Assembly: GCA_964017185.1 (NCBI GenBank)
Contig: OZ024871.1
Coordinates: forward strand, 29,674,488-29,738,487
DNA from: Rugalucina vietnamica
Taxonomy: Eukaryota; Mollusca; Bivalvia; Lucinida; Lucinidae
DNA length: 64,000 nucleotides
Reading direction: 5' to 3'
Part shown: positions 10,690-58,381 of the stretch, one piece after another
How the letters are laid out: each line of letters starts with the position of its first letter
Position numbering within the stretch: position 1 is the first letter of the stretch
Notes under the pieces: model-generated
What the model saw: the letters and a program-made list of their open reading frames with translations, nothing else
The model's database searches: none
Told to the model about the DNA's origin: nothing
Translations under genes and position numbers: made by a program

Positions 10690-11090
10690 CAAAATCCAAG
10701 ACCAAAAAGGCGGTCCTGAACCACTCTTTGAGAATTTTGATCATGAATTGTCAGTCAATTAAAAACAAACTCAGAGATTTTTCCCGAATCCTTTGAAGCT
10801 ATCCGGAAAGAAAAGAGCTAGTGAGGCGCATGGTGGTGTTTTTATTGCCCTTAGGCGTGATCTTCTCTGCACTGAAGCTCCGGAATTGGACACCAAGTGT
10901 GAAATAATTTGGTGTAAGTTGAACATTATTGGATGTAGGACTCTGTACCTTGGATCATTCTATCGTCCCCCTAGGCTCCGAACTCAGGAGCTTGAATTGA
11001 ATTATCTTGGAGCTTGAATTGAAATATCTCGAGGATTTTAACACTTCACTATCTCGGATAATGTCAAATAAAAATGCCCATGTTCTTGTA
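10690..11090 (+). pseudogene. LINE A endonuclease, N-terminal part
   Basis: Apurinic-type endonuclease (EEP fold) of a non-LTR retrotransposon. Conserved strings LRILIMNCQSIKNK near 10727 and HGGVFIALRRDLLCTEAPEL near 10828 are in different frames, with a deletion between them. It ends inside the strand that leads to the GGDFN motif, where LINE B was inserted. Confidence 0.75.
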
Positions 11091-13101
11091 TCATCATGAC
11101 AATTCTCAAAATTGTCATGATGCCATCAGGAAAAAGCACTCAAAATGGGAAAAGTTTCTCCACTGTAAGACCAACCAGAATTATGAAATTTACAAAGATG
11201 CTAGAAATAAAGTAATTACAGAAATGAGGCGTTCAAAATATGAATACGAAAAAAACCTTGCTACTCAGATAAAAACAGATCCAAAACTTTTCTGGAGCTA
11301 CGTTAGATCTAAGTTAAAAACCAAGGGGAAATTAGGTCAGCTAAAAACACAAAATGATACTCTTACCAATGATAGTCAAGAAAAAGCTGAGGTGTTGAAC
11401 ACTTACTTTGCCAGTGTTTTCGAAATTGAAAGCCAAGGAGCACTTCCTGAATTTCCAGATAGAGACTTTGATGAAACATTATCTTACGTTGAAATAACGG
11501 AAAATCTCGTCGAAAAAGCAATAGACAGACTAAAACCATCCAAATCACAAGGTCCGGACAATTTACACCCAAAATTAATCAAGGAATGTAAAAACACCTT
11601 ATTGCAACCTCTAACTCTAATCTTTAAACAGTCACTAAATGAATCCGTATTACCAGATGTCTGGAAACAAGCCAATGTTACATCAATACACAAAAAGGGA
11701 GATAAAACAAAACCTGATAACTATCGCCCCATCAGTTTGACTTCTGTGCCATGCAAATTAATGGAAAAAATTATCAGAGATCAAATTGTTGAACACATGA
11801 CTAGAAATGACTTTTTTAGTCCCTTTCAACACGGCTTTGTTTCGGGAAAATCATGTGTCACACAACTACTTGAATTTCTTGACAACATAACAGAAGCTCT
11901 AGATCAGGGTGATGACATTGATATCATTTATGTTGACTTTAGTAAAGCTTTTGATAAAATCCCGCACAGGAAACTCATGAAAAAAATGTGGGGTTATGGA
12001 ATTAGGGGCAAAATATACAAATGGGTAAAAGAATTTTTGACTAATAGAACCCAAAAAGTTGTCGTTGATGGGAAAAAATCTGGTTCAAAACCAGTGACTT
12101 CAGGCGTACCCCAAGGCAGTGTACTAGGACCCATTTTATTCGTTATTTACATTAATGATCTCCCCGACGTGATACAGTGTTTCATTAAACTCTTTGCTGA
12201 TGACTCAAAACTGTACAGAAGGGTATCTAAAATAGAGCATATAGAAATTCTACAATCATGTCTTAATAGAGCTGTTACCTGGGCCGAAATATGGGAAATG
12301 TTTTTTAACCTCATCAAGTGTCACCATCTACATATAGGAAAAAATTCAATTGGCCAGTTTTACACAATGGAATCAAGTGAGGGAACGAAAAGGCTTGAGA
12401 CAGTAACTTCAGAAAAAGATCTAGGCGTCATTATCGACAAATCACTGTCATTTACAGAACATATTAGCAGCAAAGTATCAGTTGCCAATAGAAATCTTGG
12501 GCTAATATTCAGAACCTTCACCTTTATGGATAAGGAAATGTTTTTGAACTTATATAAAAGTATAGTGCGCCCCCATCTCGAATACGCCACATGTGTGTGG
12601 TCGCCACAATACAAAAAAGACGCCATTACAATTGAAAATGTCCAGCGTAGAGCAACCAGACTTCTTCCGTGCTTAAAAAACAAAACCTACAGTGAACGAT
12701 TGAAATTTCTAGGACTTCCTTCATTAGAATATCGAAGAGAAAGAGCAGATATGATCCAAGTTTATAAGATTCTAAATGACATTGATAAGGTTAACAAAGA
12801 TAAGCTATTCACGATGTCTCATAACATTGGTACCAGAGGCCACCAATTTAAGATCTACAAGAATAGATACAGACTCAATGTTAGGGGAAATTACTTCAGC
12901 AACAGAGTAATTGACTTATGGAATGAGCTGCCTGAAAACACAGTTATGGCACCCACTCTCAACAGCTTCAAAAGCAGACTAAACAAATGTTGGTATGGGC
13001 ATCCCCGTAAGTTTGACCCTTGGTGTTATATTCCCGGCGAGAGGACAAGACAACGGCCTACATATCCAAATACATCAACAGAGGCTGTAGAGCCTGACTA
13101 G
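11074..13101 (+). CDS. LINE B reverse transcriptase ORF, 675 codons
   Basis: Non-LTR reverse transcriptase, which copies element RNA at a nicked chromosomal site. It is open from 11074 to the stop at 13099-13101. The RT motifs are in order: NYRPISLTSVPCKLMEKII, FVSGKSCVTQLLEF, DFSKAFDKIPH, GVPQGSVLGPILFVIYINDL, FADD (12193-12204), then YLGV-like EKDLGVIIDKSLSF and the C-terminal LYKSIVRPHLEYATCVWSP and RRATRLL blocks. The first five or so codons come from the LINE A host sequence read out of frame, so the real element starts at 11091 without its endonuclease: it is 5' truncated. The catalytic FADD is present and there is no internal stop, so insertion is fairly young. It may be read as part of the CR1/Jockey group; the exact clade is not resolved here. 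Confidence 0.85.
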   Translation: MPMFLYHHDNSQNCHDAIRKKHSKWEKFLHCKTNQNYEIYKDARNKVITEMRRSKYEYEKNLATQIKTDPKLFWSYVRSKLKTKGKLGQLKTQNDTLTNDSQEKAEVLNTYFASVFEIESQGALPEFPDRDFDETLSYVEITENLVEKAIDRLKPSKSQGPDNLHPKLIKECKNTLLQPLTLIFKQSLNESVLPDVWKQANVTSIHKKGDKTKPDNYRPISLTSVPCKLMEKIIRDQIVEHMTRNDFFSPFQHGFVSGKSCVTQLLEFLDNITEALDQGDDIDIIYVDFSKAFDKIPHRKLMKKMWGYGIRGKIYKWVKEFLTNRTQKVVVDGKKSGSKPVTSGVPQGSVLGPILFVIYINDLPDVIQCFIKLFADDSKLYRRVSKIEHIEILQSCLNRAVTWAEIWEMFFNLIKCHHLHIGKNSIGQFYTMESSEGTKRLETVTSEKDLGVIIDKSLSFTEHISSKVSVANRNLGLIFRTFTFMDKEMFLNLYKSIVRPHLEYATCVWSPQYKKDAITIENVQRRATRLLPCLKNKTYSERLKFLGLPSLEYRRERADMIQVYKILNDIDKVNKDKLFTMSHNIGTRGHQFKIYKNRYRLNVRGNYFSNRVIDLWNELPENTVMAPTLNSFKSRLNKCWYGHPRKFDPWCYIPGERTRQRPTYPNTSTEAVEPD

Positions 13102-13127: not shown

Positions 13128-14325
13128 TTGTAGGAGGTGATTTCAATTGTGGTGATATTGAATGGAGCACAATGCAGGTATCCGAAGGGGTCCCAAAGAG
13201 GCCAGCTCAGACTAAACTCCTAAGCATTAAACAAGATCACTGCCTCTCCCCAATGGTTAAAATACACACCCGAGAAGACAAGTCCCTTGATTTACTCTTT
13301 ACAAACTCACCATCCACAATTAACCGTGTTAAAGGGATGCCCCCGATCGGCAAATCAGATCATGACATTGTCTATGTTGAGTAGGATATTAAGGCTAAAC
13401 GGATCCAGCAGACCCCGCGTAAGATCTTTCTATATAAACGAGCGGACATGGACGGTCTACATGACCGATTAGGAAACGCGATTAACTTTACTTTCGAGCT
13501 CGCAAGTCAAGTAGCACAGACATAAAGAACCATTACAAACGGTTCAGAGCACATGTTCAAAAGAGCATTAGAGATGTATATAGGAAGCACGTTACCAATA
13601 TCTTCTTTGAAAATGATAGCCCTGATCCCAACTGTCCCCGGAAAAATGAGAAGGCAAAAAAGTTTTGGTCATTTGTCAAGTCCCTTAAAAAAGACCTCCT
13701 TAGAGTAAACGGAATCTTGATGACTGACACCTTGGATAAGGCCAACATTTGTAATAGGCAGTTTCAGTCAGCCTTCACTCGCGAATCCCCTCCAAATGCA
13801 CAAGTCCCTTCACCGCCATGGGTGAAATTACAGTTGACCCCAAAGGGGTCACTAAACTGTTGAATAATTTGAATATATACATAAGGTACCTGTGCCAGAT
13901 GGCTTGAGTGCTAGGGTGTTGAAAGAATGTAGTTCTGAAATTGCTCCTATCCTACAATGAGTCGCTTGCTCAGGGTGCTGTACCAGATGATTGGCGACAG
14001 GCAAATATAGCCCCGGTATTTAAGAAAGGTGAGAAATATGATGCAGCTAACTATCGACCGGTGTCGCTTACTTGCATCTGTTGCAAAACTCTAGAGCATA
14101 TAATAGTCAGCAATATAAACAAGCACCTGGGCCTTGAAAGCATCCTTGCTGATTGTCAACATGGGTTCCGAAGTCAAAGGTTTTGCAAAATCCAGTTAGT
14201 TCAGTTTTATCATGACTTAGTTAGTAATCTGGATCGAGCTGTGAACAGTGGGCATAAGCAAACAGACGTGATTGTAATGGATTTCGCTAAGGCCTTTGAC
14301 AAGGTCCCACATAAAAAGGTACAAG
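13128..14325 (+). pseudogene. LINE A endonuclease C-terminal part and RT N-terminal part
   Basis: Begins GGDFNCGDIEW, continues through TREDKSLDLLFTN and IGKSDHDIVYVE (endonuclease C-terminal motifs), then a linker with KFWSFVKSLKKDL, then RT block WRQANIAPVFKKGEKYDAAN, YRPVSLTCICCKTLEHIIV, DCQHGFRSQRFCKIQLVQF and MDFAKAFDKVPHKK. Several frameshifts occur between 13380 and 13960. It is cut near 14325 by a composite repeat. Confidence 0.8.
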
Positions 14326-26310: not shown

Positions 26311-28005
26311 CTAAGGCCTGGAGTGTTGCAGCTTACTAACTGAGACCTTGAAGGACTCAAGGTCTGGTAAGCATGCAACAGTTTCAGGAAGGGCATTCCA
26401 CTGGACAATAGCCAGTGGAAAGAAGGAGTATTTATAGTAATTTTTAGTAGTGTGTAACTGGCGGAATGTCATTGAGTGGCAATATCTGGAAATTCGATTT
26501 GAGGGTTGAATGTAGTCAGGGAGGGGTACAGCAACAAGTCCATGTACAATTTTATAGAAAAGACATAGGCGCGCATCTGCCCGTCTTTGCTCAAGTGTTC
26601 TCCATCCAAGATTATTTACGATTTCTGTAGTACTTGACCGGTAGTCAAAGCTACTGGTGGTCCAGCGTGCTGCTCTGCGCTGCACTTTTTCTAGCTGAAG
26701 TACTTTTTCCTTAGTATAGGGGTCCCAAACAGGGGCAGCGTACTCCAGCTGGGGGCGGACCAGTGTGTTGTAGGCAGTCTCTCGTACCTTTTGATTTTTA
26801 GTTTTGATATTTCGTTGGATGAAGTTCAGCGTCCTGGTGGCAGTTTTAGATATCCGGTCAATGTGGGGATTCCAGGATAGGCCACTGGAGATACATGAAA
26901 TGTCCACTCCCAGGTATTTGGCACTTGTGACAATCTCCAATACTTGACCATGTAAAGTATATGAAAAGTTAAAAGGATTTCTGGAGGATGTCACACGCAC
27001 CACCTGGCACTTGGACGGATTAAACTCCATGTCCCACCTGTCCTCCCACACAGAAAGTCTGTCCAAGTCATTTTGTAGCAACTTGCCATCTTCCGCACCT
27101 CCTATTGTAAGGTACACAGCCGTGTCATCTGCGAAAAGACGTACCTGTGATGACAACTCATCCGGCAGGTCATTGATGTAGATCAGAAACAGGATCGGTC
27201 CAAGGACAGAGCCCTGGGGTACACCAGAGGTCACAGGGACCGATCCCGATTCCTCCCCATCAAGTACCACCGTCTGTGACCGGTTCCCCAGGAAGGCACG
27301 GATCCAGGCAAGTGCATTTCCTCTGATTCCATACTGATGGAGTTTCCACAGGAGTTTGGCATGATTTACTTTATCAAAGGCCTTTGAAAAGTCCAGCAGT
27401 ATCAAATCAGTTTGCTTACCTTGACTCACACTCCTGGCAAGGTCCTCGACCAACATGGTAAGCTGTGTTTCACATGACCTTTTCTCTCTGAAGCCATGTT
27501 GTAGGTCATATAACAGGCCATGTGCGTTGAGATGCTTAACCACATTTGAAGCAATGATATGCTCAAGGACCTTGCAAAGTATGCAAGTCAAGGATATGGG
27601 TCTGTAGTTGGCAGCTGAAGATTTGGTTCCCTTCTTAAAAACTGGGGTGACTTGTGCTTTACACCAGTCTGCCGGGAGCTTGCCTGTTTGGAGAGAGCGC
27701 TCAAAAATAACTTGTATAATAGGGGCGATTTCCTCCCGCAGTTCCTTGAGCATGAGTGGTTTGAGCTTATCTGGTCCGGCTGCCTTAAAGGGTTTCAGGT
27801 TTTGGAGTAATTTGAGAATGCCATTGCAGGAAATGCTAAACTCTTCCATTTTGGGATTAGTGTTTAGAACTCCATCTGGTACTGCGTCATGACGCATTAT
27901 ACCACAATCTGTCATATCCTGGATTTGTATCTGACATAGTCGGGAGAGTGATAGGGGTGCTTTGGTGGTAAAAACAGATTGAAACTTTAAAATTGCCTTG
28001 GATAA
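26311..28005 (-). CDS. LINE D reverse transcriptase ORF, 534 codons or more
   Basis: Uninterrupted minus-strand RT. First ATG at 27915; the frame stays open upstream to about 28000 (FQSVFTTKAPLSLSRLCQIQ), where the element is 5' truncated, so the endonuclease is missing. Motifs in order: AAGPDKLKPLMLKEL, WCKAQVTPVFKKGTKSSAAN, YRPISLTCILCKVLEHIIAS, LQHGFREKRSCETQL, LLDFSKAFDKVNH, SGVPQGSVLGPILFLIYIND, VRLFADDTAVY, then CQVVRVTSSR, KYLGVDISC, LVRPQLEYAAPVWDPYTKEK, RRAARWTTSSFDY and SFFPLAIVQWNALPE. The thumb-to-C-terminal part is complete. Young compared with LINEs A and C because there is no stop or frameshift. CR1/Jockey-type; clade not resolved. Confidence 0.9.
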   Translation of the reverse strand, partial: LSKAILKFQSVFTTKAPLSLSRLCQIQIQDMTDCGIMRHDAVPDGVLNTNPKMEEFSISCNGILKLLQNLKPFKAAGPDKLKPLMLKELREEIAPIIQVIFERSLQTGKLPADWCKAQVTPVFKKGTKSSAANYRPISLTCILCKVLEHIIASNVVKHLNAHGLLYDLQHGFREKRSCETQLTMLVEDLARSVSQGKQTDLILLDFSKAFDKVNHAKLLWKLHQYGIRGNALAWIRAFLGNRSQTVVLDGEESGSVPVTSGVPQGSVLGPILFLIYINDLPDELSSQVRLFADDTAVYLTIGGAEDGKLLQNDLDRLSVWEDRWDMEFNPSKCQVVRVTSSRNPFNFSYTLHGQVLEIVTSAKYLGVDISCISSGLSWNPHIDRISKTATRTLNFIQRNIKTKNQKVRETAYNTLVRPQLEYAAPVWDPYTKEKVLQLEKVQRRAARWTTSSFDYRSSTTEIVNNLGWRTLEQRRADARLCLFYKIVHGLVAVPLPDYIQPSNRISRYCHSMTFRQLHTTKNYYKYSFFPLAIVQWNALPETVACLPDLESFKVSVSKLQHSRP

Positions 28006-33014: not shown

Positions 33015-33790
33015 GTGTTTTTTTAGCTCGACTGCACGAAGTGCATAGAGCTATTGCAGTCACCCCGGTCGTCCACGTTCCAGTGCGCGTGCGCGTCACA
33101 CTTGCGTTAAAGTTTTCTAGAAGTCCATATCTTGACAACCACTCATCAGAAATCATTCATACTTGGACCATAGATACCCTGTAGGGTTAGCTTTCATTCC
33201 ATGGCATCGGGCCCCTGGGTCCAGGCCAGGGGGTGGGGCTGGAGGTTAAAATCTAGAATACCTTCAAAAATGGCAATTCTTGTGTTAAAGTTTTCTAGAA
33301 GTCCATATCTTGACAACCACTCATCAGAAAGCATTGATACTTGGGCCATTGACACCCTGTAGGGTCGGCTTTCATTCCATGGCATCAGATCCCTGGGTCC
33401 ATGCTAGGGGGTGGGGCTAGAGGTTAAAATCTAGAACACCATTAATAATAATGGCTTTTCTGTGATATAGTATTCTAGAAGTCTGTATCTTGAAAACTTT
33501 TTATCAGAGGGCTTTCATACTCGGACCATAGGTACCCTGTAGGGTTGAGTTTCATTTCATGGCATCGGGTCTCTTGGTCCATGCCTGGGGGGTGGGGCTG
33601 GAGGTTAAAAACTAGAACACTGTAAAAAATAGATGTACTGCTGTGTAACTTTTACAAGGAGTCCATATCTTGACAATAACTTATCATAAAGCATTCATAC
33701 TTCATACACTTTAGGTTCCATGACATCGGACCTCTGGGTCGGAGTCAGGGGGGCGGGGCTAGAGGTCAAAATCTAGAACTCTCCGAATTT
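33015..33790 (+). repeat. 179-bp tandem repeat, four units
   Basis: Starts with a conserved TAGCTCGACTGCACGAAGTG leader, then units marked by GTCCATATCTTGACAA at about 33122, 33301, (33480) and 33661. Each unit also carries CATGGCATCGG and GGGTGGGGCT. Minus-strand ORFs across it are repeat artefacts. Confidence 0.8.
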
Positions 33791-33884
33791 TTTTCTTTTT
33801 ATTTCTTAATAGAAACAACTTAGGAAGATGGTTGGTCATTCATCTTTTGACTTTGTGACACTGACTTGTGTGTCATGACGGTAA

Positions 33885-35065
33885 GGGTCAGTTGACCTAC
33901 TTTCCATGGTTCAGTGATTTTGCCTTATATCTTGACACTCAATAAGTATGTTTTCATACTTCTTTCAGATTATAAGTGAGTACCACCAGGCCTTTGACCC
34001 CAATATACTTATAGGTCACTGTGACCTAATTTCACGGTTCAGTGATTTTGCCTTATATCTTGACACTCAAATAGTATATTTTCATACTTTTTTCAGATTA
34101 TGAGTGAGTATGACCAGACCTTTGACCCCAACATACTTATAGGTCACTGTGACCTAATTTCACGGTTCAGTGATTTTGCCTTATATCTCAGTACTTAAAT
34201 GGTTTATGAACAAACTTCTTTCAAAGTATGCTTGCGTATGACAAGACCTTTGACCCTAAAATAGTCCTAGGTCACTGTGACCTAATTTCACGGTTCAGTG
34301 ATTTTGCCTTACATCTTGACACTCAATTGGAATATTTTCATACTTTTTTCAGATTATGAGTGAGTATGACCAGACCTTTGACCCCAATGTACTTATAGGT
34401 CACTATGACCTAATTTCACGGTTCAGTGACTTTGCCTTATATCTCAACACTCAAGTAGTTTATGAACAAACTTCTTTGACACTATGTTTGGGTATGACAA
34501 GACCTTTGACCCTAAAGTAGTCCTAGGTCACTATGACCTAATTTCACGGTTCAGTGATTTTCCTTTATATCTCGGCACTCAATTGGTATATGAATATACT
34601 TCTTTCACGATATGTATGAGTATGACAAGACCTTTGACCGTAAAGTATTCCTGGGTCTCTGTTACCTAATTTCATGGTTCAGTGATTTTGCCTTATATCT
34701 CGACACTCAGTTGGTATTTTTTCATACTTTTTTCTGATTATGAATGAGTATGACCAGACCTTTAACCCAAACATACTTATAGGTCACTATGACCTAATTT
34801 CATGGTTCAGTGATTTTGCTTTATATCTCAACACTGAATGGGTATATGATCATATTTCTTTCACATTATGAGTAAGTATCACTAGACCTTTGAGGCCTTG
34901 ACCCTGAAATACTTATAGGTCAGTGTTATTTCACGGTTCAGTGATTTTGCCTTGTGTCTTGGCACTCAGTTGGTATATGACTTCTTTCACAATATGAGTG
35001 AGACCTTTAAATCTTAGGTAGTTATAGTTAACTTTCATGGTTCAGTGATTTTGCCTTATCGCATC
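33885..35065 (+). repeat. 128-bp tandem array with AGGTCAnnnTGACCT in each unit
   Basis: About nine units. The 15-mer AGGTCACTGTGACCT stands at 34013, 34141 and 34269, and AGGTCACTATGACCT at 34397, 34525 and 34781; a degenerate copy is at 34653 and half-copies at 33885 and 34917. Spacing is exactly 128 bp from 34013 to 34781. Two monomer types mix, one with CAGATTATGAGTGAGTATGA and one with AGTCCTAGGTCAC. The motif is an inverted repeat of the nuclear-receptor half-site with a 3-bp spacer. Confidence 0.95.
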
Positions 35066-35394
35066 AAGGCAAAAAGATGTATGAGCATAATGCTTTGGGT
35101 TATTGGTCGGGTTTGGCCTTATGTTTGACAAAGGTCAGAAGCAGTCGAGCACGCTGTCCTGCGACGGCTCTTATTATTATTATTATTTACACGTTTTTTG
35201 TCCTGAAATTTGCATTTGGTATGGCATGTATCTGTCAATCGTCAGATTATCATATCTGTCAAATGACATATATTCTTTCCTTTGACAGAAAATCTGTCGA
35301 GACGATTTTCCTAGACTTGATGATAATTCCGCTCGGGTATCCATGTTGAAATGATATCCCTACCTTAGCCTTACAGTATCCATGTTGCTCAGCA

Positions 35395-39014: not shown

Positions 39015-39385
39015 AACGAAAAAAAATGTGATATTTTTTCATTGCTTTTTACAAACCATTGCGTTCCTGGAGAAATGTTGCATGAACGTCATCTAGGTCC
39101 GCTAAAAACCAGCTTTGAAGTGAACTAACACAACAGGTTGATTGGTTATGTGTCCAAGTTGTAAAGAAGCAGACCCACAATCAATCTACTCTTGTGGCAA
39201 TCAGTGGTTTTGTCCGGCACCTGTCTGGTTTTGTCCGGCACCTGTCTCTCATGAAGGTTAGGCCATGAAAATTGTAGATTCAAACCTGCTCTTGTATTTT
39301 CACCCTATAACGGAGCTTGTCCTTGGGCCCCGACCCATTGGGCTGCGAGAAAGTGATGGGCTGCTTGTACCTCCAGGCAAACCTT

Positions 39386-41871: not shown

Positions 41872-43965
41872 TGAGCTTATAGGATGGCCATGATCCGTCG
41901 TCGTCCACAATTTCAAAGATCTTCTTCTCTGAAACCGCTTGGCCAATCTCGTTGAAATTTTATGTGGAGCCTCCTTGGGTAGTGGCATTGTAATTTTGAT
42001 CGGGATATCTTGGTAACATGACCAAGATGGCCGCCACGCCCATATATGGTAAAACCACTCAAAAATCTTCTTCTCCAGAACCGGTGGGCCAATTTCCACG
42101 AAACTTGGTATGTAGCATCGAGGACTTCAGCCCATTATAGTTTAATAAAATGATGACCCTTGGATGACCTTGACCTATTTTACCGCAAGGTCAAATTTGG
42201 AAACCTATGCTTTTACATGGGAAAAAGTGAAAACTATGGATTTTTTGAAAACTATTGCAGCCTGAGGCCTGAAAAGTGGTTGATGCAAACAACTAATGGA
42301 GTAGATGAAGGCATGTGATTAATTTAGGTCAAGGTCATCTCGACCTTGGCCAGTCTGTCGTCCATACACACTTTCAAAGATCTTCTCTGAAACTGCTTGG
42401 CCAATCAAAGTGAAATTTTATGTGGAGCATCCATGGATAGGGAGACAAAAGTTTGATCGCGAAATCCAGGTCACATGACCAAGATGGCTGCCACGCCCAT
42501 ATATGGTAAAAAACACCCAAAAATCTTCTCCAGAACCGGTGGGCTGATTTCCACGAAACTTGGTATGTAGCATCGAGGACTTCAGCCCATCATAGTTTGA
42601 TAAAATGATGACCCTTGGATGACCTTGACCTATTTTATGGCAAGGTCAAATTTGGAAACATATGCTTTTACATTGGAAAAAGTGAAATCTATGGATTTTT
42701 TGAAAACTATTGCAGCCTGAGGCCTGAAAAGTGGTAGATGCAAACAACTAATGGAGTAGATGAAGGTATGTGATTAATTTAGGTCAAGGTCATCTCTTGA
42801 CCTTGGCCAGTCTGTCGTCCATACACACTTTTCAAAGATCTTTTTCTCTGAAACTGCTTGGCCAATCAAAGTGAAATTTTATGTGGAGCATCCATGAGTA
42901 GGGGAGACGAAAGTTTGATTGCGAAATCCAGGTCACATGACCAAGATGGCCGCCACGCCCATATATGGTAAAAACCACTCAAAAATCTTCTCCAGAACCG
43001 GCAGGCCGATTTTCACGAAACTTTGTATGTAGCATTTGGGACTCCAGCCCATCATAGTTTGATCAAATGATGACCATAGGATGACCTTGACCTATTTTAC
43101 GGCAATGTCAATTTTGGAAACATAGGCTTTTACATTGGAAAAGTGAAACTATGGATTTTTTGAAAACTGTTGCAGCCTGAGACCTGAAAAGTGGTAGATG
43201 CAAACAACTAATGGAGTAGATGAAGGTATGTGATTACTTTAGGTCAAGGTAATCTCTTGACCTTGGCCAGTCTGTTGTCCATACACACTTTTCAAAGATC
43301 TCTGAAACTGCTCGGCCAATCAAAGAGAAATTTTATGTGGAGCGTCTATGGATAGGGGGAACGAAAGTTTGATCGCAAAACTCGGGTCACATGACCAAGA
43401 TGGCTGCCATGCCCAACTATGGTAAAAAACCACTCAAATATCTTCTTCTCCAGAACCGGCTGGCCGATTTACGCGAAACTTGGTATGTAGCATTTGGGAC
43501 TCCAGCCCATCATAGTTTGTTGAAATAATGACCCAAGGATGACCTTGACCTATTTTACGGCAATGTCAATTTTGGAAACATAGGCTTTTACATGGGAAAA
43601 GGCGAAAACAGTGGATATTTTGGAAACTGGTGCAGCCTGAGACTGGAAAGTTGCTAGATGCAGACAACTAATGGAGTCAATGAAGGTAAGTAATTAATGA
43701 AGGCCAAGGTCATTTCTTGACCTTGACCAAGGTCATTTCTTGACCTTGACCCCAGGTCATTTAAATATCAAAATTAAAATCGTTTTTGCAGAAATCACTG
43801 GGTTTGGAAACTATTGCAGCCTGAGACCTGAAACTTTGCAGATGCAGACAACTTATGAAGTCAATAAAGGTGTGTGAGTATTCAAGGTCAAGGTCATTTC
43901 ATGATGACTTAATACTCCAAGATCAGGCTTCAGGTGAGCGTTCTCAGGACCAATGGTCCTCTGGT
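41872..43965 (-). repeat. 455-460-bp tandem repeat, four units, reversed
   Basis: Same family as 366-1906 in opposite orientation; CATGACCAAGATGGC marks units near 42017, 42475, 42937 and 43393. Each unit includes GATGACCTTGACCTATTTTA and, after it, GGTCAAGGTCATCTC. The block closes with TTCAGGTGAGCGTTCTCAG and AGGACCAATGGTCCTCTGG, the mirror of the start of the first array. Confidence 0.85.
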
Positions 43966-53948: not shown

Positions 53949-54616
53949 CGTGAAACCTTGCAAAGTAATTGTCCTTGACATACCCTTCAAGCACGCACCT
54001 TGACCCGGTGCCCTTGACCTATATTTTACGGTCCATTGACTTTGTTCATTTTTATGTCGAAGTTTGGTTTTCTCTGCATGAGTGATACCTGCGAGTGTGA
54101 AACCTTGCAAAGTAATTGTCCTTGACATACCCTTTGACATACCCTTCAAGCATGCACCTTGACCCGGTGCCCTTGACCTTTATTTTACGGTCCATTGACT
54201 TTGTTAATTTTTACGTCGAAGTTTTGTTTTCTCTGCATCAGTGATACCTGCAAGTGTGAAACCTTGCATAGTAATTGTCCTTGACATACCCTTCAAGCAC
54301 GCCCCTTGACCCAGTGCCCTTGACCTACATTTCAAGGTCCACTGACTTTGTTCATTTTTATGTCGAAGTTTGATTTTCTCTGCATCAGTGATAGCTGCAA
54401 GTGTGAAACCTTGCATAGTAATTGTCCTTGACATACCCTTCAAGCATGTACCTTGACCCGCTGACCTTGACCTATATTTCATGGTCCATTGACTTGTTAA
54501 TTTTTATGTCAAACTTTGGTTTTCTCTGCACCTGTTATAGCTGCGAGTGTGAAACCTTACATAGTAATTGTCCTTGACATACCCGTCAAGCATGCACCTT
54601 GACCCGCTGACCTTGA
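53949..54616 (+). repeat. 145-bp tandem array, left part
   Basis: Units marked by GTCGAAGTTTGGTTTTCTCT or close forms near 54056, 54216, 54361 and 54506, each with GTGAAACCTTGCA, GTCCTTGACATACCCTTCAA and CCTTGACCTATATTT. One unit has an extra 14-bp duplication (54130-54145). The first half-unit lies at 53155-53197, before the insertion. The array continues at 56836-57003. Confidence 0.85.
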
Positions 54617-57387: not shown

Positions 57388-58381
57388 CCTGTACGAAATT
57401 GTCCAACAGGAACACAGCAGTATTACCACAGGAAAATGAGACCAGATTCCTGGCAGGAATCCCTTTGACTATTTGATTTTTCTTATAAAGATTACGACAG
57501 GAGTCAGTGTGGACTCCCTGTGGAATCTGGAGCGAAATATTTAAATTAGCAGGAATCCTGCCAGGAATCTGAACCAGATTCCTGGCAGGAATCCTGCCAG
57601 GAATATGAACCAGAAATTTTGGCAGGAATCCTGACAGGAATTTCGAGCAGATTCCTGGCAGGAATCCTGTTAGGAATATCGAGCCAATTCCTGCTATATG
57701 TCTGCATTAGAAATGACCTCTTTGAAAACACATGCATATGAAAGTTTTTGAACAAAGGAAATGTAAGGGGCTAGTGTATCATATATCCATAGACGCAGCC
57801 ATTATATTTTGTTAAAAAAATGCTTGTATCAATGAGTAGTAATGATAAATGTCATTTTCAATTACAATTCTTAGAAACTTCCTTAAATAGACTGATTAAA
57901 AATTGTACATGATCAGAGGTGGGTGGGGAATATTTTGAAAACGAAAAGCATAAAGAATTTAGTTAATGATTACAAAGATCAATGAATGAATAAAATGGAA
58001 GGAAAACATACCTTACTTTTACTAAAAAGTATTCCTCATTTATTTTTACCAAAATTTGATAGCAAACATAGTGTCAGTATCAAACAAATTGAATAATGAC
58101 TGTCTTGTTTAAAAAAGCCCAACCTCATGGCTTCCTGTGTGTACCACCTAATTGTTTACACATTTATGAAAGACAGATTTAGGTCGGCAGTATTTTTGCC
58201 AAGCAGGAATCCTAACAGGAATTTTGTTTATTTTCCACGTGGAAAAGTCAAAAATTCCACGTGGAAAATGCAAGCATCTCACTGTCCTGTTAGGAATCAG
58301 GCTGAAAATCAGATTCCACACTGACTCCTGTCTTTGTCCAACTGGACTACCAGTGGAATCCTGTTGAATTTTTCGTACGGG
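57388..58381. mobile_element. 994-bp DNA transposon with CCTGTACGAAA ends, TA flanks
   Basis: CCTGTACGAAATTGTCCAAC at the left mirrors GAATTTTTCGTACGGG at the right, with TA on both sides (57386-57387, 58382-58383). Sub-terminal GACAGGAGTCAGTGTGGA and CCACACTGACTCCTGTC mirror each other too. Repeated palindromic ATTCCTGGCAGGAAT words occur at 57440-57680. The TA duplication fits Tc1/mariner-like elements. No transposase. Confidence 0.85.

Follow-up and report, generated by a model that had tools for sequence, protein, structure and literature searches.

Results

An array of estrogen-response-element palindromes upstream of RPS9

The window, i.e. the whole 64-kb stretch of DNA analysed here, contains a mobile element of 2.15 kb whose end lies approximately 0.8 kb upstream of the RPS9 exon that holds the start codon. 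Between its terminal modules lie two tandem arrays, the second of which bears inverted repeats of the nuclear-receptor half-site (IR3) in the layout of the estrogen response element (ERE):

33023..35174, + strand: whole mobile element, a non-autonomous Helentron of the HINE type, 2.15 kb (ends common to 20 copies with differing flanks)
33023..33061, + strand: 5' terminal module TTAGCTCGACTGCACGAAGTGCATAGAGCTATTGCAGTC, with the subterminal inverted repeat GCTCGACTGC and internal complementary repeats
33077..33097, + strand: short GC-rich stretch GTTCCAGTGCGCGTGCGCGTC, in place of the left-module microsatellite (by eye)
33101..33702, + strand: first tandem array, 3.4 units of 178 bp (TRF)
33886..34980, + strand: second tandem array, 8.5 units of 128 bp, bearing the palindromes (TRF, unit listing)
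34013..34027, no strand assigned: perfect IR3/ERE AGGTCACTGTGACCT (pattern search)
34117..34128, - strand: DR1-like site GGGTCAAAGGTC, perfect also at 34245, 34373 and 34501 (four in the window copy)
34141..34155, no strand assigned: perfect IR3/ERE, spacer CTG (pattern search)
34269..34283, no strand assigned: perfect IR3/ERE, spacer CTG (pattern search)
34397..34411, no strand assigned: perfect IR3/ERE, spacer CTA (pattern search)
34525..34539, no strand assigned: perfect IR3/ERE, spacer CTA (pattern search)
34781..34795, no strand assigned: perfect IR3/ERE, spacer CTA (pattern search)
35141..35174, + strand: 3' terminal module with the subterminal repeat GCAGTCGAGC, a palindrome and the end CTCTTAT (inverted-repeat search, copy alignment)

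A pattern search for AGGTCANNNTGACCT across the 64-kb window returned six perfect sites, at 34013, 34141, 34269, 34397, 34525 and 34781, which confirms the five sites in a row at 128-bp pitch and the additional one at 34781 described in the initial annotation. With up to two mismatches allowed, there were 14 IR3 matches in the window, whereas 100 shuffles averaged 2.52 matches and never exceeded 7. The anchor GGTTCAGTGA recurs from 33908 to 34804 in seven consecutive steps of 128 bp, followed by steps of 131 and 104 bp. In the unit at 34651 the site is degenerate (GGGTCTCTGTTACCT), and in the first array unit it reads GGGTCA-GT-TGACCT.

The vitellogenin ERE is a promoter element of one gene family, whereas the sites described here form a transposon-borne array. 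The identification of the layout as that of the consensus ERE is borne out at the level of letters: all six window sites match GGTCAnnnTGACC, and AGGTCACAGTGACCT, the reverse complement of the commonest 15-mer including its spacer, is contained in the vitellogenin ER-site oligonucleotide given in the accessible text of PMC3310853. The motif had been described as varying at a single spacer base, which holds for the window copy (CTG or CTA) but not for other copies, where variation extends beyond the third spacer base: the spacers of the 147 perfect sites in 20 aligned copies are CTG (79), CTA (31), ATA (17), GTG (16) and four further forms with one occurrence each. Most 128-bp units also contain a DR1-like site, GACCTTTGACCC (opposite strand GGGTCAAAGGTC), 12 bases before the next IR3, and perfect DR1-like sites number between 2 and 6 per element copy (20 copies).

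The array is the core of a non-autonomous Helentron

A genome search with positions 35020-35170, a segment with no IR3 inside, gave 40 scored matches at 97-100% identity among 267 candidates. The 18 same-orientation loci among the 30 that were cut out are all alike up to CTCTTAT and diverge beyond it. At the left, 20 copies share an equally sharp end at TTAGCTCGACTGC; the termini of the family read TTAGCTCGACTGC...GACAGCTCTTAT. TTA precedes GCTCGACTGC in 20/20 copies, and the base following the 3' CTCTTAT is T in 16/20, A in 2 and C in 2; because target and element share Ts, the ends are assigned to within approximately 1-2 bases. Insertion sites are T-rich and show no target-site duplication. 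Joined flanks of 5/20 copies (L039, L043, L044, L045 and L047) have empty-site matches, likewise without target-site duplication; L055 was excluded from these matches for low complexity.

The subterminal inverted repeats are 100% complementary, GCTCGACTGC (33026-33035) pairing with GCAGTCGAGC (35141-35150). In the consensus, the 5' subterminal repeat is followed by its complementary repeat (GACTGCA...TGCAGTC, by eye) at a distance of 18 bases, and the 5' end folds as a DNA hairpin with a z value of -3.0, 1 of 200 shuffles folding as well (calculated on a typed 45-nt version of the end). At the 3' end the family has the palindrome GCTGTC-CTGC-GACAGC, in which the window copy has one mismatch (GACGGC); a stem is predicted for the family version, yet 46 of 200 shuffles fold equally well. 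By eye, both the L041 copy and the consensus have longer CCGTTC/CGTGCG repeats than the window copy. The element has no coding capacity, the longest open stretch of the consensus being 78 codons, and its other copies measure 1.8 to 2.5 kb. Helitron_like_N yielded 409 coding candidates in the genome; the 150 that were scored all exceeded the cut-off, many of them in open frames of more than 2,500 aa.

For the alignment, 27 element stretches were fetched (the window copy and L035-L060), of which 20 were aligned; L040, L049, L054 and L057-L060 had no 5' end at the expected distance and were dropped. The 20 copies differ from their consensus by 0.8-3.1% (mean 1.25%); in an earlier set of 18 copies the range was 0.8-3.2%, with the window copy at 1.7%. 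Since the aligned copies are the best matches to the 3' end of the window copy, and thus biased towards young and similar ones, this divergence is a lower bound on age.

This anatomy agrees with that of Cg_HINE of Crassostrea gigas as described in the accessible text of PMC7492417: both have subterminal inverted repeats, a microsatellite-like left module, a 3' palindrome and central satellite-like repeats (in the oyster, two arrays in a row are exceptional), and both insert into T-rich sites without target-site duplication. The two differ in the unit length, which is 128 bp here and 138-181 bp for Cg_HINE monomers, and in the distance between the 5' complementary repeats, which is 18 bases here and 1-12 in the oyster elements (PMC7492417). 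It is well supported that the array is the core of a HINE, a non-autonomous Helentron, for which the autonomous partner is a candidate only. The 178-bp units (33101-33702) and the 168-bp half-site family (L039:3009-3524) are alike at 20/26 bases, as is the best of 60 shuffles; the likeness gives a weak hint that several central repeats may have a common ancestor.

Genome-wide distribution of the element and its sites

The exact 3' 27-mer of the element occurs in 1,819 copies on both strands, the first 100 of the listed matches being spread across 57 Mb of contig C1. The array beside RPS9 is accordingly one copy of a dispersed transposon, and because of this dispersal it has no claim to be special; an RPS9-specific regulation is rejected on the same grounds. 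Satellite DNA and receptor array had been set against each other as alternatives, which they are not: the array sits in a dispersed transposon, and the two are not exclusive.

Counted with the longer pattern AGGTCAnnnTGACCT, perfect IR3 sites number 22,978 in 1.09 Gb, compared with 20 for the pattern read backwards. As many as 19,597 of them (85%) directly precede the family's own WATTTCA, so that at least this share belongs to the 128-bp family. The window copy, with 6 perfect sites, has fewer than the copies longer than 2.4 kb, which have 7 to 9. A 12-base control from the 128-bp unit, GTTCAGNNNTTTTGC, is found in 23,731 places for 10 consensus units, and the IR3 in 22,978 for 9 units; per source unit, the IR3 is thus kept about 8% better than the control, with the unit numbers read from the consensus. 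A scan of viral contigs for the 128-bp unit gave 0 matches.

Conservation between units and among copies

We compared half-sites, spacer, the adjacent 33-base block AATTTCACGGTTCAGTGATTTTGCCTTATATCT and the distal unit across the ten core units of the consensus. Between these units the half-sites differ at 1/120 positions (2/120 in a consensus from the first 18 copies), as against 5/30 for the spacers (p 0.0012) and 79/500 for the distal unit (p 4e-7). The adjacent block differs at 11/330 positions, which is not significantly different from the half-sites (p 0.20), and GACCTTTGACC is found in 7/10 core units. The statement that the rest of the unit varies therefore applies to its distal part, while the 33 bases beside the site are conserved about as well as the half-sites. 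To our knowledge, no receptor site matches this block, which may be a second, unknown site. The 128-bp units alternate between two near-identical, recently duplicated types, and hence are not independent.

Among the dispersed copies the change rates are 0.0121 for half-sites, 0.0204 for the spacer, 0.0103 for the adjacent block and 0.0170 for the distal unit, and the half-sites do not differ significantly from the spacer (p 0.15), the block (p 0.47) or the distal unit (p 0.13; 26/2152 against 153/9018 changes). Counted by variable columns, the comparison of half-sites with spacer (2/12 against 2/3) is likewise not significant (p 0.15). When an IR3-shaped mask was moved through 86 placements, one scored lower than the true placement and seven tied with it. 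The expectation that the 15-mer evolves at the rate of the rest of the unit thus holds across dispersed copies and fails between the units of the source element, and the lower variation of half-sites than of spacers, expected under the selection suggested earlier, is seen between consensus units only, with no significant counterpart among copies. Selection at the sites of individual copies finds no support in the comparison of half-sites with the distal unit. The half-sites were maintained in the source lineage and seem to decay freely once copied, a pattern that would fit a benefit to the transposon and not to the host. If selection was at work, it was on the source element and not at RPS9.

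Half-sites in other tandem families

Ten other tandem families, a non-random sample of blastn clusters from the window and from element flanks, were searched for the half-site. RGGTCA exceeds shuffles in five of them (four at p 0.003-0.007, one at p 0.050), the units of the other five contain no RGGTCA at all, and the total is 19 compared with 2.1 expected. Among the 1,018 6-mer pairs present in the ten families AGGTCA ranks first, and the next ranks are taken by words overlapping CAAGGTCA. A systematic sample of 50 kb, made up of one 5-kb stretch from the 20-Mb mark of each of ten contigs, shows no general enrichment of AGGTCA, which ranks 102 there with 33 occurrences; 2/5 arrays of period >=60 in this sample carry half-sites, both of them belonging by eye to the 167/168-bp family.

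The families use other spacings, and the IR3 geometry is not a general rule. The 455-bp family (496-1807 and 41923-43729) has the layout TGACCTTG-N13-CAAGGTCA, the 168-bp unit has GTGACCTTGACTTCAAGGTCAC, and the 147- and 151-bp units both contain GACCTTGACCTAWWTTTCAAGGT. The latter two share a 26-base box (23/26 alike), and consequently not all families are independent. Genome-wide, the everted pair TGACCTTG-N(0-20)-CAAGGTCA occurs 94,234 times compared with 3 for the reversed pattern, the inverted pair CAAGGTCA-N-TGACCTTG 21,226 times compared with 6, and AGGTCA-N4-12-TGACCT, which overlaps in part with the inverted-pair count, 33,975 times compared with 564. A half-site mask on the 455-bp family revealed no significant excess of conservation (70/458 circular shifts as low), and neither did the smaller samples of the 168-bp (76/167), 147-bp (63/146) and 151-bp (89/150) units.

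Several side observations concern these families. The 455-bp family, relatives of which are present in several fetched flanks, appears HINE-like by eye, with a GGAC/CCGTC microsatellite and the ends GGTGAGCT and GGACCAATGGTCC; it carries everted as well as inverted receptor half-sites and a very conserved GACCAAGATGGC, which we take to resemble a YY1 site. At 54134-54616 lies a 147-bp array with CTGACCTTGACCTATATTTCAAGGTCC, whose 26-base box is common to the otherwise different 151-bp unit in L059.

Candidate nuclear receptors of the genome

The suggestion that bivalves have steroid-receptor-like and other nuclear receptors proved correct for this genome, which encodes an ER orthologue and DNA-binding-domain (DBD) exons of ERR and NR5A. 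There are 75 zf-C4 exon matches, part of which are covered by the 40 stretches that were fetched. Exons L078 and L079 form an ER DBD, with AncSR1 (a reconstructed ancestor), three ER chains and ERR as matches in this order. It is identical to the ER of 1hcp at 59/70 positions, including all of CEGCKAFFKRSIQG (counted on the alignment), and its recognition helix, the DNA-reading helix, is that of the vertebrate receptor, with an ER-type P-box. L074 and L075 are ERR DBD exons, and L073 is an NR5A DBD exon. In gel shifts, a gastropod ER binds GGTCAnnnTGACC without ligand, while the accessible text of the same paper reports no binding of the gastropod ERR to the ERE (PMC3778743). A further locus, L100 (G000:C4:30355688-30356260), holds seven tandem copies at 82-bp pitch that code for the first zinc finger of a nuclear receptor, each followed by the splice-donor-like GTAGGGTCAAG; two further matches lie at 30361368 and 30361450.

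Discussion

The anatomy of the element, the match of its repeat unit to the consensus ERE and the presence of an ER with a vertebrate-type recognition helix in the same genome make a receptor-binding role of the 128-bp units plausible at the level of sequence. We tentatively favour, at somewhat less than an even chance, the reading that the array is a predicted receptor-binding cassette spread by a transposon, the role of the receptor being putative. From the contrast in conservation between source units and dispersed copies, and from the recurrence of the half-site in other families, we infer that the sites help the element to spread. We propose a hypothetical sequence of steps in which (i) a presumed mobilising coding element at another locus would supply the Helitron-type Rep-helicase proteins that spread the HINE; (ii) each 128-bp unit would act as a receptor-binding cassette with a perfect IR3 (ERE) and, mostly, a DR1-like site; (iii) host nuclear receptors, foremost a molluscan-type ER, would bind the arrays in transposition-competent cells; (iv) this binding would keep donor copies in open chromatin, to the presumed benefit of transposition; (v) source elements equipped with good sites would be copied more often; and (vi) each inserted copy, including the one upstream of RPS9, would decay without selection.

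The strongest competitor of this proposal is that the array is an ordinary central repeat of a HINE that contains the IR3 by chance, its units having been recently duplicated or converted, with no receptor involved. Such a passenger would explain why conservation in the neighbouring non-receptor block is close to that of the half-sites, why the rate difference of the half-sites is not significant in dispersed copies and why half of the sampled families have no half-site; the alternation of A and B units shows recent duplication, and the HINEs of C. gigas have many unrelated central repeats according to the accessible text of PMC7492417. However, chance is not an easy explanation for the recurrence of one half-site in five of the ten other tandem families or for the extreme excess of everted over reversed pairs, and between units the half-sites are nearly constant where the spacer is not. 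We consider a mere passenger somewhat less likely than our proposal, and the competitor to be taken most seriously.

A role of the palindromes in DNA structure, in which they would fold as single-stranded hairpins and favour the duplication of units in tandem when the element replicates by rolling circle, largely regardless of their letters, appears to us distinctly less likely again. The half-site pair is the longest perfect inverted repeat in the 128-, 455-, 168-, 147- and 151-bp units (arms of 8, 8, 10, 8 and 10 bp), and the six tested families without half-sites have no inverted repeat above shuffles, the 90-bp array having entered this test as its 30-bp sub-unit. A 10-bp palindrome in the 316-bp unit is not composed of half-sites (2/100 shuffles as good), and tandemisation through stem-loops is discussed in the accessible part of a C. 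gigas satellitome paper. Yet a purely structural role predicts varied palindromes, whereas all five families use AGGTCA; the spacer shifts from CTG to CTA, ATA or GTG remove the closing C-G stem pair in some units; and for the 455-bp unit 13/100 shuffles yield an inverted repeat as good.

It is more doubtful still that another sequence-specific protein, such as a Rep/helicase host factor or a chromatin protein, reads the conserved half-unit and that the AGGTCA dyad is only part of its target. Conservation does cover the dyad plus about 33 bases, and the least variable windows of the 455-bp family, GGTCACATGACCAAGATGG and GATGACCTTGACCTATTTTA, are wider than the half-sites; against this, the word recurring across families coincides exactly with the receptor half-site, and the next in rank overlap CAAGGTCA. 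Finally, the idea that selection shaped the array as a host regulatory element of RPS9 has next to no chance and is already largely refuted, since the proximity of the start-codon exon stands against the 1,819 exact 3' ends in the genome, a divergence of the window copy that is ordinary within the range of the 18 copies first compared, and fewer intact sites than in the copies longer than 2.4 kb.

The receptor-cassette reading has a partial parallel in human Alu elements, likewise dispersed mobile elements that act as a source of ER-type sites: of 38,024 predicted human EREs, 3,607 lie in Alu (PMC1794554, accessible text). Unlike the Alu sites described there, those reported here match the consensus perfectly, stand in tandem with as many as 9 in an aligned copy, and are carried by a Helitron-type DNA transposon of an invertebrate. 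Our literature searches found no description of receptor sites in repeats of bivalves or other molluscs, nor in Helitrons; in the accessible text of the Cg_HINE paper (PMC7492417) 'receptor' occurs only in one reference title, 'transcription factor' does not occur and no half-site was seen, and both terms are absent from the accessible text of two oyster satellitome papers.

Perfect EREs in this genome number about 23,000, of which a single transposon family accounts for 85% or more; to these are added about 94,000 everted extended half-site pairs. If receptors bind these sites, the targets of molluscan ER/ERR signalling are largely made by transposons, and work on endocrine disruption in molluscs must account for a very large sink of sites. 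The family also makes it possible to test directly whether a host's hormone receptor can be of benefit to a transposon. A bolder and, in our estimate, rather unlikely extension would be that rolling-circle elements have repeatedly taken up half-site dyads (IR3, everted and inverted) in dissimilar families, exploit host receptors for their spread and have thereby seeded the genome with over 100,000 receptor-type dyads, a number sufficient to titrate or rewire ER/ERR/NR5 signalling.

Further features of the window

Outside the element, long open frames at 11074-13101 and 26311-27915 resemble reverse transcriptases of non-LTR retrotransposons, and reverse-transcriptase-like fragments lie at 13941, 19822, 20807, 28427 and 45131 (all by eye). 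Between 39196 and 40479, repeats at 39205/40437 and 39594/40827 are spaced 1,232-1,233 bp apart, which suggests a recent tandem duplication. Four 36-bp units containing the palindrome GCAGGAATCCTGC are located at 57549-57693.
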